From Paracoccaceae bacterium (GTDB lineage Bacteria; Pseudomonadota; Alphaproteobacteria; Rhodobacterales; Rhodobacteraceae), in NCBI GenBank assembly GCA_020446815.1, contig JAGRDY010000026.1:248001-312000 (forward strand): a DNA stretch of 64,000 nucleotides. Reading direction: 5' to 3'. The notes under the pieces are model-generated. The model searched no databases. It was given only the letters and a program-made list of their open reading frames with translations, and was not told the origin of the DNA. The translations under genes were made by a program, and so were the position numbers. Shown one piece after another: positions 14,921-20,099 of the stretch; position 1 is the stretch's first letter, and each line of letters opens with the position of its first letter.

Positions 14921-15031
14921 TGCTGGGCCAAAGATCGCCCGATACAAACTCACTACTTGGCGGAAAGGGTTCGGCTTGTTAACGTCCGGGGCGTAGCAGA
15001 CCCGCAAATCACTGGCTGATATCGTTCGACC

Positions 15032-15868
15032 ATGCGCCATACCCTGCCCTTTGCGCCGCAATTCTATGTGACGGCACCGCAGCCCTGCCCCTATCTTGAT
15101 GGGCGCTCGGAGCGCAAGCTGTTCACCGCCCTGCAAAGCGAGAATGCCGACAAGCTCAACGATGCCTTGTCCAAGCAGGGCTTTCGCCGGTCGCAGAATG
15201 TGCTTTACCGGCCCTCCTGCGCGGAATGCGCCGCCTGCCTGTCGGCGCGGATTCGGGTGGCCGACTTCACCCCCAACAAAAGCCAGCGCCGCGTCTTGAA
15301 GCGCAACGCCTATCTGCACCGCAACGTGACCAGCCCCTGGGCGACCGAAGATCAGTACACGCTGTTCCGGCGCTATCTCGACAGCCGTCATGCCGATGGC
15401 GGCATGGCCGATATGGATGTGTTTGAATTCGCCGCGATGATCGAGGAGACGCCGGTCAAAAGCCGTGTGGTCGAATATTGCGGCGCCAAGGACGGCGACA
15501 CGTCAAAGCACGATCTGACAGCGGTATGCCTGACTGACGTGCTCGATGACGGGTTGAGCATGGTCTACAGTTTTTACGAACCGACAAAGGCCGGTGACAG
15601 CCTGGGCACCTATATCATTCTCGATCATATCGAGATCGCGCGAAAGGCCGGGTTGCCCTATGTCTACCTTGGCTATTGGGTACCCGGCAGCAGGAAGATG
15701 GGCTATAAGGCCGGTTTTCGCGCGCTGGAAATCTATAAAAAGGGCGTGTGGCAGGATATCGGCAATCCCGAAGACCATACCAGCGAAACCCATCCGCTGT
15801 CCGTCGACCCTATCGCCGAACAGGTGGCCCGGATCACTCTGCCCGACACCCAGCTTGTCAAGGGTTGA
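15032..15868 (+). CDS. bpt: Aspartate/glutamate leucyltransferase
   Basis: 278 residues. The N-terminal ATE domain has the Cys motif [16 protein letters not shown] and the C-terminal domain ends in the GNAT-like segment [28 protein letters not shown]. This is the Bpt subtype, which transfers Leu from Leu-tRNA to proteins with N-terminal Asp or Glu, marking them for ClpS/ClpAP degradation through the bacterial N-end rule. Length matches the family. It appears monocistronic, following a terminator and about 120 nt of promoter space. Confidence 0.92.
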
Positions 15869-16202
15869 ACCGGAAAAGCGCCGCAACGGTTGTCCGCTCC
15901 GTGCCCGTCCTGCCCGCCCGGCGGGCTTTCGCGCCAGACAACATCTGCGGCCGCGCCACGAGCGGGCGAGCAATCGCACCGCTCGTTTGATGAAGCGCTG
16001 CGGCGGTTTTCTCTATATGAGCCTCACCCCGTCCAGGGAAAACCGGTCGGGGCGTTGCGGATGGAAATCGAAACCGGGTTCGGGCCTTTCGGGTGCGAGT
16101 GCGGGTATTTCCCACATCAACCGGCACCTGAACCACTTTCACCCCTTGTATTGCGGATTGCCGCCCCAATCTTGAGACGACGGGCCGGTCGGGAGTGGAT
16201 TT
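15869..16202. other. Intergenic region after bpt
   Basis: 334 nt without a convincing gene; open frames on both strands show no recognisable domain. One hairpin is visible: ACGAGCGG (15958-15965) with CCGCTCGT (15979-15986), 13-nt loop, then TTTG, a weak candidate terminator for bpt. The rest shows nothing I can name. Confidence 0.5.
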
Positions 16203-17123
16203 TTGACGTATCTTTTGTTTGTGCTGGGCCTGGTTGGTCTTTCCGTGGGGGGCGAATTCCTGGTGCGGGGGGCGGTGCATGTGGCGCGGCGGTTGCATGT
16301 GCCCGCGCTGGTCATCGGGGCGACAGTCGTCGGTTTCGGAACCTCGGTGCCGGAACTTCTGGTATCGGTTCAGGCCGCGATGTCGGGCGCACCCGATCTG
16401 GCCCTGGGCAATGTCATCGGCTCCAACATCGCCAATATTCTGCTGATCCTTGGCGTGGCGGCCCTGATCTTTCCGGTTCCGCTAAGGGTGGCGGAACTGC
16501 GGCTCGAATTCATGGTGATGATCGGGTCCACGGCGATGCTCTGGATCCTGCTGCTTGGCAACAAGGTGACACGGTGGGAAGGCGCGATGATGTTCGCCGC
16601 GCTGATTGCCTATCTCTACTTCAGCCTGCGCACATCTGCCGGCTCTGCCCCGCCGGAACCTTCCGAGCCCGAGGCCATGCCGCTCTGGCGAAGCGCTGGC
16701 TGTGCCCTGGGCGGTCTGGTGATCTTGATGGTCGGGGCGCGCTTTCTGGTTGACAGCTCTACCGACATTGCCCGTACCTTTGGCGTTTCCGAGGCGGTGA
16801 TCGGCCTGACGATCGTTGCCATCGGCACATCGCTGCCCGAACTTGCCGCCTCGATCATGGCGGCGCTGCGCGGGCATTCCGATATCGCGGTCGGCAACAT
16901 TCTCGGATCATGCATTTTCAACGTGCTGGGCATTTTGGGCATCACCGCCATGGTCACGCCGATCCCGGTCGACCCCCGTTTCGCCGCATTCGACATCCGC
17001 GTGGCTGCGGTGGCGGCTCTGGTCATGCTGGGGCTGGCATTTGCAGGGCGTTCGGGGCGATTGTCGGGTGGAATTCTGTTGATTTCCTACGCCGCTTATC
17101 TGGTCTATCTGGGCCAGGGATGA
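16203..17123 (+). CDS. Calcium/sodium antiporter (CaCA family, YrbG-like)
   Basis: 306 residues from TTG at 16203 with GGAG about 9 nt upstream. About ten hydrophobic helices form two homologous halves, each with the alpha-repeat signature: GFGTSVPELLVS at residues 44-55 and AIGTSLPELAAS near residues 205-216, both followed by GNxxGS-N/C. This is the K-dependent or independent Na/Ca exchanger fold of YrbG. It probably extrudes Ca2+ at the inner membrane. The CTTTCGCGCGAAAG palindrome at 17157-17170 lies just downstream. Confidence 0.88.
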   Translation: MTYLLFVLGLVGLSVGGEFLVRGAVHVARRLHVPALVIGATVVGFGTSVPELLVSVQAAMSGAPDLALGNVIGSNIANILLILGVAALIFPVPLRVAELRLEFMVMIGSTAMLWILLLGNKVTRWEGAMMFAALIAYLYFSLRTSAGSAPPEPSEPEAMPLWRSAGCALGGLVILMVGARFLVDSSTDIARTFGVSEAVIGLTIVAIGTSLPELAASIMAALRGHSDIAVGNILGSCIFNVLGILGITAMVTPIPVDPRFAAFDIRVAAVAALVMLGLAFAGRSGRLSGGILLISYAAYLVYLGQG

Positions 17124-17221
17124 TCGCTGGATTTTTTTAATATTTCGTTCTCGACCCTTTCGCGCGAAAGAAACCGTTGAAATGGCGCGCCGCTGCGACA
17201 GATTATTGCCGATTTTCACGG

Positions 17222-17250
17222 TTGACGCTTGTTTTGGCGCCGCATAGTCT
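17222..17250 (+). promoter_or_regulatory. Promoter of the ilv leader and ilvBN operon
   Basis: TTGACG at 17222-17227 and TAGTCT at 17245-17250, spacing exactly 17 nt. Transcription would start near 17257, giving a leader of about 165 nt before ilvB. Confidence 0.6.
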
Positions 17251-17281
17251 ACGCCGCGCAGCAGCAAAAGGATCGCAGGAC

Positions 17282-17329
17282 ATGTCTGCGCTACGCGTAT
17301 TCGGGGAAAGTTGGCGTATGGGCCGGTAG
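17282..17329 (+). CDS. Putative 15-residue leader peptide of the ilvBN operon
   Basis: ATG at 17282 is preceded by AGGA-rich sequence and the frame ends TAG at 17327-17329, encoding MSALRVFGESWRMGR. It contains Leu as CTA and Val as GTA, both unusual codons in this GC-rich genome. Its last codons overlap the 5' arm of the antiterminator at 17313-17321, as expected for ribosome-mediated attenuation. The branched-chain content (one Leu, one Val) is lower than in classical ilv leaders, so the sensed amino acid is uncertain. Confidence 0.5.
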   Translation: MSALRVFGESWRMGR

Positions 17330-17381
17330 CGGCGAACACCGATGTTTTCCATACGCCCCCGATTGCTCTCGGGGGCTTTTT
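17313..17381 (+). promoter_or_regulatory. ilvBN transcription attenuator: antiterminator and intrinsic terminator
   Basis: Two mutually exclusive hairpins can form. Antiterminator: GGCGTATGG (17313-17321) with CCATACGCC (17349-17357), 9 bp. Terminator: GCCCCCGA (17355-17362) with TCGGGGGC (17369-17376), 8 bp, 6-nt loop, then TTTTT (17377-17381). They share 17355-17357, so forming one disfavours the other. The 5' antiterminator arm lies inside the leader ORF, so a ribosome finishing the leader would favour termination and one stalled early would favour read-through. Confidence 0.7.
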
Positions 17382-17421
17382 GTTGCAGATCACGGGCAAG
17401 ATGGCTGGAGAGAGTTTCAAG

Positions 17422-19176
17422 ATGTCACGGCAAATGACCGGAGCGAAGATGGTGGTTGAGGCGCTGAAGGATCACGGCGTCGATGTGGTCTTTGGATACC
17501 CGGGCGGCGCGGTGCTTCCGATCTATGACGAGATCTTTTTGCAAAACGATATCCGCCATGTCACCGTGCGCCACGAACAGGGCGCGGTGCACATGGCCGA
17601 AGGCTATGCCCGATCGACCGGCAAGCCCGGCGTCGTTCTGGTGACCTCCGGGCCGGGGGCGACCAATGCCGTGACCGGGCTGACAGACGCTTTGATGGAT
17701 TCGATCCCCGTCGTGGTTCTGACCGGACAGGTGCCTACCTTCATGATCGGCACGGACGGCTTTCAGGAAGCCGACACCGTGGGCATCACCCGCCCCTGCA
17801 CCAAGCATAACTGGCTGGTCAAGGAAACCGACAAGCTGGCCGGTACCCTGCACGAGGCCTTTCATGTGGCGACAAGCGGCAGGCCCGGCCCGGTGCTGGT
17901 TGATATTCCCAAGGATGTGCAGTTCGCCGACGGGCTCTATACGGCGCCGGACGAGGCGATACCATCGCATTACCAGCCTACCGTCAAAGGCGATCCCGCC
18001 GCCATCGAGGCTTTGGCCGCATTGATGGAAAAGGCCCAGCGCCCGGTATTCTACACCGGCGGCGGTGTGATCAATTCCGGCCCGGAAGCGAGCCGCCTGT
18101 TGCGCGAACTCGCCGAAAAGACCGGGTTTCCCGTAACCTCGACCCTGATGGGGCTTGGTGCCTACCCGGCGTCGGGCAGGAACTGGATCGGCATGTTGGG
18201 CATGCACGGGCTTTACGAGGCCAATCTGGCGATGCATGGCTGCGATCTGATGATCAATGTCGGCGCGCGTTTCGACGACCGCATCACCGGCCGTATCGCC
18301 GATTTCAGCCCCAAGTCGAAAAAGGCCCATATCGACATTGATCCGTCGTCCATCAACAAGGTCATCCACGTCGATATTCCGATCGTCGGCGACGTCGCCA
18401 ATGTGCTGGCCGATCTTCTGGCCGCCTGGGAGGCGCGCGGATCGAAGCTGAACCAGGCGGGGCTTGCCAAATGGTGGAGCCAGATCGAACAATGGAAGCT
18501 CAAAAAATGCTTGCAATACAATAACTCTGACAAGGTAATTAAACCTCAGTATGCGCTGGAACGGCTAGAGGCACTGACCAGGGACCGAGACCGCTATATC
18601 ACCACCGAAGTGGGCCAGCATCAGATGTGGGCGGCGCAATATCTGACCTTCGAAGACCCCAACCGCTGGATGACGTCAGGCGGGCTTGGCACCATGGGTT
18701 ACGGATTGCCTGCCTCGATCGGGGTGCAGGTCGCCCACCCCGAAGCACTGGTCATCAATGTTGCCGGCGAGGCGAGTTGGCTCATGAACATGCAGGAGAT
18801 GGGCACCGCCATTCAGTTTCGCGCGCCGGTCAAGCAATTCATCCTCAACAACGAACGCCTGGGCATGGTGCGCCAGTGGCAGCAATTGCTGCACGGCGAA
18901 CGCTATTCGCAAAGCTGGTCTGAATCGCTGCCGGATTTCGCCAAACTCGCCGAAGCCTTTGGCTGCAAGGGGATTCGATGCGCCGACCCGAAGCACCTCG
19001 ATGAGGCGATCATGGAAATGCTCGACTATGACGGGCCGGTGATCTTTGACTGCCTCGTCGAAAAGCATGAAAACTGCTATCCGATGATCCCGTCGGGAAA
19101 ACCGCATAACGAGATGTTGCTGGGGGATACAGGAGCCGAGGATGCCATCGGCGCCAAGGGCGCGGTGTTAGTTTAG
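17422..19176 (+). CDS. ilvB: Acetolactate synthase, large (catalytic) subunit
   Basis: 584 residues from ATG at 17422, chosen for GGAGAGAG upstream and the family N-terminus MSRQMTGAKMVVEAL; ATGs at 17311 and 17401 are in-frame but poorly placed. ThDP enzyme of Ile/Val/Leu synthesis. Motifs include FGYPGGAVLPIYDEI, the catalytic Glu in VRHEQGAVHMAEGYAR, TSGPGATN, and the C-terminal ThDP/Mg segment with NNERLGMVRQWQ. It is the first structural gene behind the attenuator and is followed 13 nt later by the regulatory subunit. Confidence 0.95.
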   Translation: MSRQMTGAKMVVEALKDHGVDVVFGYPGGAVLPIYDEIFLQNDIRHVTVRHEQGAVHMAEGYARSTGKPGVVLVTSGPGATNAVTGLTDALMDSIPVVVLTGQVPTFMIGTDGFQEADTVGITRPCTKHNWLVKETDKLAGTLHEAFHVATSGRPGPVLVDIPKDVQFADGLYTAPDEAIPSHYQPTVKGDPAAIEALAALMEKAQRPVFYTGGGVINSGPEASRLLRELAEKTGFPVTSTLMGLGAYPASGRNWIGMLGMHGLYEANLAMHGCDLMINVGARFDDRITGRIADFSPKSKKAHIDIDPSSINKVIHVDIPIVGDVANVLADLLAAWEARGSKLNQAGLAKWWSQIEQWKLKKCLQYNNSDKVIKPQYALERLEALTRDRDRYITTEVGQHQMWAAQYLTFEDPNRWMTSGGLGTMGYGLPASIGVQVAHPEALVINVAGEASWLMNMQEMGTAIQFRAPVKQFILNNERLGMVRQWQQLLHGERYSQSWSESLPDFAKLAEAFGCKGIRCADPKHLDEAIMEMLDYDGPVIFDCLVEKHENCYPMIPSGKPHNEMLLGDTGAEDAIGAKGAVLV

Positions 19177-19189
19177 GAAGGGCCGGTAA

Positions 19190-19750
19190 ATGTCTGCACT
19201 CAAAATCAAAAAAGGCGCCTCCAGTCATTCCGCCTATGACCTGCGCGACCCGAATCTGGAAATCATCGAAACCCATACCCTGGCGGTGGTGGTCGATAAC
19301 GAGGCAGGCGTCCTGGCCCGCGTGATCGGGCTTTTCGCCGGGCGCGGCTACAATATCGAAAGCCTCACCGTCGCCGAGATCGACCACAAGGGACATCTGA
19401 GCCGGATCACCGTCGTCACCCGTGGCACACGCGCGGTGATCGAACAGATCAAGGCGCAGCTGGGCCGGCTGGTGCCGGTTCACCAGGTCAACGACCTGAC
19501 CGTCGAAGGCCCTTCGGTGGAACGCGAACTGTCGCTGTTCAAGGTGGCGGGCACCGGTGAAAAGAGGGTCGAGGCGTTGCGGCTGGCCGATATCTTTCGC
19601 GCCAATGTGGTCGATTCGACGCTCGAAAGCTTTGTCTTCGAAATCACCGGAACCCCGGAAAAAATCGACGCCTTCGCCGATCTGATGCGCCCTCTGGGGC
19701 TGACCGATGTCGCCCGTACCGGGGTCGCGGCCCTGTCACGCGGCGGCTGA
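19190..19750 (+). CDS. ilvN: Acetolactate synthase, small (regulatory) subunit
   Basis: 186 residues. The N-terminal ACT domain with LAVVVDNEAGVLARVIGLFAGRGYNIESLTV (residues about 31-60) binds valine for feedback inhibition, and the C-terminal domain with VERELSLFKV matches IlvH/IlvN proteins. It partners the catalytic subunit encoded 13 nt upstream and shares its attenuated promoter. Confidence 0.95.
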   Translation: MSALKIKKGASSHSAYDLRDPNLEIIETHTLAVVVDNEAGVLARVIGLFAGRGYNIESLTVAEIDHKGHLSRITVVTRGTRAVIEQIKAQLGRLVPVHQVNDLTVEGPSVERELSLFKVAGTGEKRVEALRLADIFRANVVDSTLESFVFEITGTPEKIDAFADLMRPLGLTDVARTGVAALSRGG

Positions 19751-19862
19751 CATGGCAAGGCGCCTTGCCTTGTTCGGGGGATGCATTCGTTCGAAGGCAA
19801 GGCGCCACAAGGCCCCAAGAACCTTTATTCCGGGGCCCTGATCATCTGTTTCCGATCTGGGA
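19751..19862. repeat. Palindrome-rich convergent gap after ilvN
   Basis: GGCAAGGCGCCTTGCC (19754-19769) is a perfect 16-bp palindrome and its half GGCAAGGCGCC recurs near 19796-19806. Further on, GGCCCC and GGGGCC (about 19812-19839) can form a hairpin. Together these could end transcription from both ilvN and the facing EF-hand gene. Confidence 0.45.
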
Positions 19863-20099
19863 TCACCCGGGGAGCGTGCCGTTTTCGATCGCTGCCTGGA
19901 GTTCGTCCGCATCCACCGCACCGTCGCCATTCGCATCGATGGTCGCGAAGGTTTCGGCGTTCAAATCGGGATAGGCGGCGGTCATTTCCTCGATCGAATA
20001 GGTGCCATTGCCATCGGTATCCGTCACAACGGTCTGGGCGTTGGCTTGAAACGCAGCCAGGGCAACAAAACCGCCCAGGGCCATAACCAGCTTATTCAT
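19863..20099 (-). CDS. Secreted small EF-hand protein
   Basis: 78 residues from ATG at 20099, with GGAG about 10 nt upstream; the longer reading to 20324 is not supported. A signal peptide (MNKLVMALGGFVALAAFQANA) precedes two EF-hand loops, DTDGNGTYSIEE and DANGDGAVDADE, with normal spacing. It is probably a periplasmic calcium-binding protein or sensor. Many Rhodobacteraceae encode such peptides; partners are unknown. It is monocistronic, convergent with ilvN and downstream of nrdJ. Confidence 0.8.
   Translation of the reverse strand: MNKLVMALGGFVALAAFQANAQTVVTDTDGNGTYSIEEMTAAYPDLNAETFATIDANGDGAVDADELQAAIENGTLPG

Follow-up and report, generated by a model that had tools for sequence, protein, structure and literature searches.

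The window analysed here, a 64,000-nucleotide stretch of DNA from a Paracoccaceae bacterium, carries on its forward strand the complete anatomy of a ribosome-mediated transcription attenuator (positions 17222–17386), 5′ of a branched-chain biosynthetic operon made up of ilvB (17422–19176; acetolactate synthase large subunit, NCBIfam NF006581, 1116 bits) and ilvN (19190–19750; small subunit, NCBIfam NF008864, 220 bits), both identified from NCBIfam and Pfam. A calcium/sodium antiporter gene on the same strand (16203–17123) ends about 100 bases before the ilvBN promoter. The promoter itself (17222–17248) is predicted from a TTGACG –35 element (17222–17227) and a CATAGT –10 element (17243–17248), and is backed by a conserved TTGAC motif: of 156 distinct family leaders, 154 carry it 20–85 nt 5′ of their start, compared with a mean of 8.2 of 156 in mononucleotide shuffles. 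This pair is absent from the output of a consensus promoter scan, because its 15-nt spacer lies outside the scanned range of 16–18. We note that the window species is represented by one draft genome, such that a local sequence error is possible, though the leader ORF and the stems are intact.

The leader ORF (17282–17329, MSALRVFGESWRMGR) comprises 15 codons and a TAG stop, a length shared by 135 of 157 distinct family leaders, and its translation is predicted from this fixed length, a purine-rich Shine-Dalgarno sequence, and its conservation in relatives; codons 12–15 read Arg-Met-Gly-Arg, each residue being found in 128 of the 135 leaders. The peptide contains a single Leu, at codon 4 (CTA, 17291–17293), and a single Val, at codon 6 (GTA, 17297–17299), as the sequence-only reading that preceded this work had pointed out, and these candidate control codons occur at the same positions in 28 and 83 of the 135 leaders, respectively (window included). 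That reading was also right in calling them rare, since they provide 0.85% of the Leu and 4.7% of the Val codons in 38 long window ORFs. The antiterminator 5′ arm (GGCGTATGGG, 17313–17322), which occupies leader codons 11–14, pairs with the 3′ arm (TCCATACGCC, 17348–17357) through nine Watson-Crick pairs and one G-U, as supported by a compensatory U17317-A17353 pair and by pairing in relatives. Between the two arms, a small hairpin, CCG-GUAG-CGG (17323–17332), holds the leader stop codon in its loop, and its assignment draws on a varying outer pair and on mutual information. The last three bases of the 3′ arm also belong to the terminator stem-loop (17355–17376; 8 bp with a 6-nt loop, then T5), which was recognized by a terminator scan and by covariation; with these three bases common to both, antiterminator and terminator are mutually exclusive. 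The full set of parts that had been read from the sequence (promoter, leader ORF, antiterminator, and terminator with T5) was found, phased as described, with the antiterminator 5′ arm inside the ORF and the 3′ arm overlapping the terminator stem. The stop-codon hairpin and the long-range helix described below are additions to that reading. The fold of 17256–17390 is more stable than expected by chance (z = –3.06), and a search of window positions 15000–20000 against Rfam gave no covariance-model match at E up to 1.

In the enterobacterial leu and ilv attenuators, a stalled ribosome decides between an antiterminator and a terminator. Compared with these by description rather than by sequence, the present type differs in its 15-codon leader, which in relatives has a five-codon mixed block, in the hairpin loop that contains the stop codon, and in a closing helix that reaches the tail beyond the terminator. 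The enterobacterial leu attenuator likewise uses rare CUA control codons, and a theory paper citing the experiment states that changing CUA to CUG control codons lowered sensitivity (PMC1183508). The kind of attenuator seen here is already known, as alphaproteobacterial ilvB leader peptides are in print: Corbino et al. 2005, citing Vitreschak et al. 2004, refer to such a peptide, also upstream of ilvB in Alphaproteobacteria, as one described before (PMC1273637). The window leader lacks most of the control codons of its relatives, and the leader of Vitreschak et al. is compared here by its description in the citing paper only. Attenuation of ilvBN in Caulobacter crescentus, again with a leader peptide before ilvBN, in this case with tandem Ile and Val codons, is attributed to Tarleton et al. 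1994 in a later paper (PMC4117421), and is likened to the present element by that description only. Within the same order, the uORFC-8-2 motif of Rhodobacterales is described as having features of a ribosome-mediated attenuator, but precedes another gene, cysS, and uses cysteine codons (PMC8632094; likened by description). Anatomy alone is no proof of attenuation, because altering candidate control codons in the Streptomyces coelicolor ilvB leader is reported to have had no effect (PMC1262725). In the literature searched by title and abstract start, we found no paper treating the Rhodobacteraceae element.

Relatives were collected by an IlvB scan of a species genome collection, from which the best 80 loci were used, and by a genus search of 22 genomes (the window's own included), which gave 20 further loci. 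With L038 dropped as being without the IlvB motif, 100 upstream regions (the window and 99 loci) were examined, which are mostly close relatives by choice. A leader ending in RMGR-stop was recognized by pattern in 90 of these 100 regions, and the addition by eye of L034 and L096 brings the number to 92; the eight regions without the element are six Paracoccus loci, L068, and the truncated L069. Neither the pattern nor the scan found an attenuator of the ilvBN type at any of the six Paracoccus ilvB loci (L037, L048, L051, L055, L067, and L073). We then trained a covariance model (R1) on 83 distinct leaders, and of 296 genomes sampled from the family, 258 contain a match to it. In the window's own genome, R1 matches the ilvB site with E = 4e-20, while its other matches (E = 0.08 to 0.9), which show no like anatomy by eye, were taken as chance. 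The leader set is non-random, being composed of the 80 best IlvB matches, the genus loci, and best- and weak-scoring family matches, and the leader scanner missed 41 of 224 sources, some with real leaders (e.g., L012, L063, and L163). One leader, L187, is a wrong ORF pick; it was excluded from the leader codon counts (as were the window and L096) and from the mutual-information, closing-helix, and Shine-Dalgarno exposure sets, and was retained in the 157-leader set, the stop-codon counts, the 15-codon position table, and the 135. Four weak family matches before ilvB (L212, L214, L216, and L218) have, by eye, degenerate leaders and altered antiterminators, perhaps reflecting further erosion. 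Some genomes seem to carry two ilvB copies, each with its own attenuator, as in L021 and L059, which share a bin label; L263 (genome G427) is likewise a second ilvB with an attenuator, the leader of which equals that of L059. L013 and L019, both Defluviimonas loci, have leader peptides identical to those of L099 and L102 in the window's genus, which thus seems to be the genus that includes these Defluviimonas loci.

Across the 135 distinct 15-codon leaders, window included, codons 4–8 contain five Leu, Val, or Ile codons in 95 cases, four in 35, three in 2, two in 2 (the window and L192), and one in 1 (the mis-picked L187). A run of four or five control codons is therefore present in 130 of 135 leaders, and the window retains a remnant of two. 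Its codons 4–8 read CTA (Leu), Arg, GTA (Val), Phe, and Gly, with Gly at codon 8 in 17 of the 135 leaders. In the distinct family leaders GTA makes up 57% of the Val and CTA 24% of the Leu codons, as opposed to 2.2% and 0.9%, respectively, in the 99 ilvB genes of relatives. This over-use, and the fact that the survivors in the window are these very codons at positions 4 and 6, lend partial support to the earlier suggestion that sensing depends on rare codons. The accompanying idea, that the atypical peptide represents a working mode of its own, found no support, as the relatives carry a classical Leu/Val/Ile block and the window peptide is a local erosion of it.

How recent this erosion is can be judged from the nearest relative, L085 (IlvB 91% identical), the leader of which (MTAIVVLGGEWRMGR) has four of the five block codons and the same Gly at codon 8. 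As the IlvB tree joins the window and L085 as sisters (100/99), block residues 5 and 7 were lost since the two split. Over half of the usual sensing codons are gone in the window species, although the RNA folds are retained. A second member of the genus, L096 (MNGTVSAGIRRMDR; from an 87% complete assembly), has also lost the block, and the IlvB tree requires two separate changes for the two erosions, making that of L096 an independent loss. Over codons 2–10, the window and L085 leaders are alike at 52% of bases, a value at the lower quartile when set beside 377 other pairs with comparable IlvB identity, and a two-residue block difference such as theirs is seen in 3 of those 377 pairs.

The folds themselves were assessed over 83 distinct sequences, bearing in mind that the shuffles used for comparison do not keep relatedness. 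The antiterminator and the stop-codon hairpin together have 96.5% standard pairs, and three of their pairs have both partners changed, whereas 500 shuffles gave a mean of 0.4 and in no case as many as three. For the terminator, the share of standard pairs is 96.1%; here 34 cells have both partners changed (500 shuffles: mean 12.4, none as high), and one C-G pair is swapped to G-C in 12 of the 83. Two of the five covariation measures applied to the terminator are weak: 45 of 500 shuffles attained the observed number of doubly changed pairs, and 25 of 500 attained that of pair types. The sequence-only reading had staked the attenuator on covariation of its two stems, and, since both covary over these 83 distinct relatives, it came through that test. 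The pair 17317-17353 is U-A only in the window, C-G in 79 sequences, and U-G in 3, so that a compensatory replacement of C-G by U-A preserved the antiterminator fold even as the peptide diverged. In the register-free test, no signal comes from the antiterminator arms (z = –0.6), which hardly vary.

The outer pair of the stop-codon hairpin is C-G in 73 of the 83 sequences, U-A in 4, U-G in 4, G-C in 1, and unpaired in 1, and its corrected mutual information is the fifth highest among all column pairs (z = 9.2); the loop reads G-U-A-A or G-U-G-A, with the stop codon inside, in 86 of 90 leaders. We count this covarying hairpin, with the leader stop codon in its loop, as new here, the earlier alphaproteobacterial ilvB leaders having been considered through citing papers. 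TAG is rarer as a leader stop (7 of 157) than as an ilvB stop (12 of 99; p = 0.03). A preference for GNRA loops would fit this scarcity, yet is a weak explanation for the window copy, the leader of which itself stops at TAG.

Taking these data together, we consider it likely that the locus is a ribosome-mediated transcription attenuator of ilvBN, of a kind already known, whose sensor has shrunk recently. The sequence itself shows which parts are present, that they are conserved and covary, that codon use in the leaders is biased, and that codons 5 and 7 have disappeared from the block; from this we infer the function of the attenuator as a whole. A ribosome at the leader stop codon would cover the antiterminator 5′ arm, allowing the terminator to form and keeping ilvBN off; if charged Leu- or Val-tRNA for the rare codons were short, the ribosome would stall at CTA4 or GTA6, leaving the 5′ arm free, such that the antiterminator would form and ilvBN would be transcribed. 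We modeled this by masking the ribosome footprint in a transcript ended before the terminator 3′ arm, and scoring the pairing of the shared antiterminator 3′ arm bases. In the window, these bases are paired upstream with a probability of 0.35 with the ribosome at the stop codon, 1.00 with codon 4 in the A site, and 0.98 with codon 6 (0.98–1.00 over codons 4 to 7, and 0.67 at codon 8); the medians for other family leaders are 0.63 at the stop codon and 0.99 at codons 4 to 7. In this folding model, the antiterminator can thus form ahead of the finished terminator when the ribosome stalls at codon 4 or codon 6. For the complete window transcript, the terminator probability is 0.93 without a ribosome, 0.99 at the stop codon, and 0.99, 0.88, 0.70, 0.22, and 0.83 at codons 4, 5, 6, 7, and 8, respectively, and the terminator mostly wins in relatives too; because the complete transcript favors the terminator in most states, the switch would need to be decided during transcription. 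We also considered a second antiterminator arm within the leader (GCGTAT, codons 5–6, copying the true arm) as a bypass, and dropped it because the duplex energy of this pairing places the window no higher than 11th among 157 leaders.

Among the observations that count against a working switch in the window, only two control codons are left, and the model antiterminator also forms in the absence of a ribosome (1.00). The sensor could be dead, with the hairpins remaining, the control codons too few, and ilvBN expressed at an unchanging basal rate that depends on terminator leakage or failed leader translation, a reading we regard as rather unlikely but as the most serious competitor. It gains from the loss, since the split from L085, of codons 5 and 7, both among the four block codons that the sister has, from the independent block loss in L096, which implies that sensing may be dispensable, and from the absence of any element found by pattern or scan at all six Paracoccus loci. 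The IlvB branch of the window is also long (0.11, compared to 0.039 in its sister), and its IlvB/NrdJ path ratio is the highest found (1.09, compared to 0.67–1.02 in the other 16 genomes). Fast IlvB evolution as a sign of a relaxed need for ilvBN is, however, not decisive: IlvB and NrdJ are both fast in this lineage, which leaves the specificity of the long branch in doubt, and the ratio for L096 does not stand out (0.76). Against a dead sensor speak an antiterminator preserved by compensatory change, and surviving codons that are the rare ones, in register. We retain the shrunken but working sensor as our preferred reading, in which the window copy would still answer to Leu and Val, probably more weakly than its relatives.

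It is very unlikely that the leader now senses stress on translation in general, for example from slowed ribosomes or from inhibitors, instead of branched-chain supply: rare codons may slow translation anyway, and homologous attenuators precede Bcr/CflA efflux-family genes (see below), where drug sensing is conceivable, but the element precedes ilvBN in the family with a Leu/Val/Ile block, and there is no sign of a stalling peptide. The probability that an ordinary terminator and a meaningless short ORF came together by chance is negligible in view of the family-wide conservation, covariation, and codon bias, even if terminator-like sites are expected at 1.2 per 901 bases (the scan found three, the attenuator terminator among them).

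Beyond the classical parts, a covarying long-range helix appears to join the leader ribosome-binding site to the U-tract and the tail that follows the terminator. In the window, it consists of 11 contiguous pairs between a 5′ arm (GCAGCAAAAGG, 17261–17271), located just before and within the Shine-Dalgarno purines of the leader, and a 3′ arm (17376–17386) formed by the last terminator C, the U-tract (17377–17381), and the tail GTTGC. The pairing is maintained by differing sequences, for example, GCAGC/GUUGC in the window, ACGCG/CGCGU in L076, and CGCAC/GUGCG in L032. When native duplexes were compared with permuted ones in 156 leaders, we obtained z = –8.6 with the U-tract included and –7.0 when the tail was taken with only the final three U of the tract; the five pairs of control segments gave –0.7 to +1.5. 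With one leader per tail type (48 types), the corresponding values are –7.1 and –5.8, with the terminator arms as positive control at –7.0 and four controls at –0.7 to +1.9. Helices of at least 10 pairs are found in 52 of 156 native combinations, compared to 9.8% of cross pairs. This signal is clear over the set and not for each sequence, because a mean of 31% to 35% of tails from distant leaders match the native tail in pairing strength, and the helix is not universal in simple form, as 73 of the 156 leaders have fewer than seven contiguous pairs. Column-wise mutual information on the whole alignment did not recover the helix, which is seen in register-free tests only, probably because the 5′ leader and the U-tract vary in length.

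In folds of the 156 leaders, the mean exposure of the Shine-Dalgarno sequence falls from 0.31 to 0.23 with the leader's own tail, and to 0.28 with foreign tails; exposure is lower with the own than with a foreign tail in 73 leaders and higher in 37 (p = 3e-5). The own tail lowers it from 0.76 to 0.41 in the window, and does not lower it in the sister L085 (0.33 to 0.34). The tail lies mostly past the release point expected of intrinsic terminators, and the full closing helix should hence form in read-through RNA, where it may latch leader translation off or protect the 5′ end. We did not find this helix described, although the earlier alphaproteobacterial ilvB leaders are known to us via citing papers only, and we present it as new here.

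The same core occurs before genes of another kind. In a draw of 387 genomes from the class, R1 matches 26, six of which belong to the family and have an IlvB-like frame downstream of the match; the other 381 genomes were taken as other families. Among the 20 remaining matches, 13, from 10 families, precede genes of MFS transporters of the Bcr/CflA kind (TIGR00710), comprising 10 proteins assigned by TIGR00710 (three of them 1.0 to 5.3 bits below the cut-off), two more, and L116 by translation only; the other seven are weak (E = 1.5e-5 to 9e-4), with neither gene downstream by eye. In 11 family genomes with two R1 matches, the second precedes a transporter in five (L262 and L264–L267), a second ilvB in one (L263), and an unassigned neighbor in five; L213 is also of the transporter type, by eye. 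The transporter-type loci are then L114–L126, L213, L262, and L264–L267. A second model (R2), trained on 18 transporter-type leaders and no ilvB leader, picks up the leaders in all six family genomes from the class draw, with E values of 1e-16 to 7e-27, which argues for homology of the two types. With E values of up to 1e-4 admitted, R2 matches 36 of the 387 genomes, namely, the six family genomes, the same 13 (12 of which had gone into R2), and a further 17 with weaker matches (E = 5e-8 to 1e-4), where most of those with a place given match the terminator end only.

The transporter-type leaders contain 2 to 7 Leu, Val, or Ile codons, mostly Val (e.g., MNPKSVVVVVSRRCMVR), with only two in 2 of the 18. 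Homologous, mostly Val-rich putative attenuators thus precede Bcr/CflA genes in 13 of 381 other-family genomes, which we count as new; among the titles and abstract starts of the literature searched, no paper tying CflA to a leader-peptide attenuator was found. The closing helix finds no support in the 18 transporter-type leaders (z = –1.0 and –0.5), a small sample. The nearest Bcr/CflA homologue in the window genome has 47% identity, and the region upstream of it has no terminator-like site or leader ORF of the attenuator type. A short attenuator-core-like piece (CTGCGCCCCCG, L274) lies 5′ of this homologue, and is perhaps a remnant.

Tentatively, and with more doubt than confidence in the combination as a whole, these strands could be joined into one reading, in which the U-tract and the bases that follow pair with the ribosome-binding site, closing the leader into a single domain as a third switch element after read-through, the core has been exchanged in evolution between ilvBN and Bcr/CflA genes (the transporter leaders, in ten other alphaproteobacterial families, being mostly Val-rich), and the RNA switch outlives its amino acid sensor in the window species.

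Judged by its anatomy, the window element is a genuine attenuator and belongs to a known kind; its sensor has undergone local erosion, and its family conserves a further helix. Attenuators are usually described by their competing hairpins, and a helix that is fully formed only after read-through would add a step that follows the decision, which is testable with point mutants. The shared core before Bcr/CflA genes offers a regulatory clue for these transporters, pointing to valine supply or the slowing of ribosomes. Finally, the family provides a natural series, from full control-codon blocks through two codons to no element, which could show how many control codons such a switch needs.
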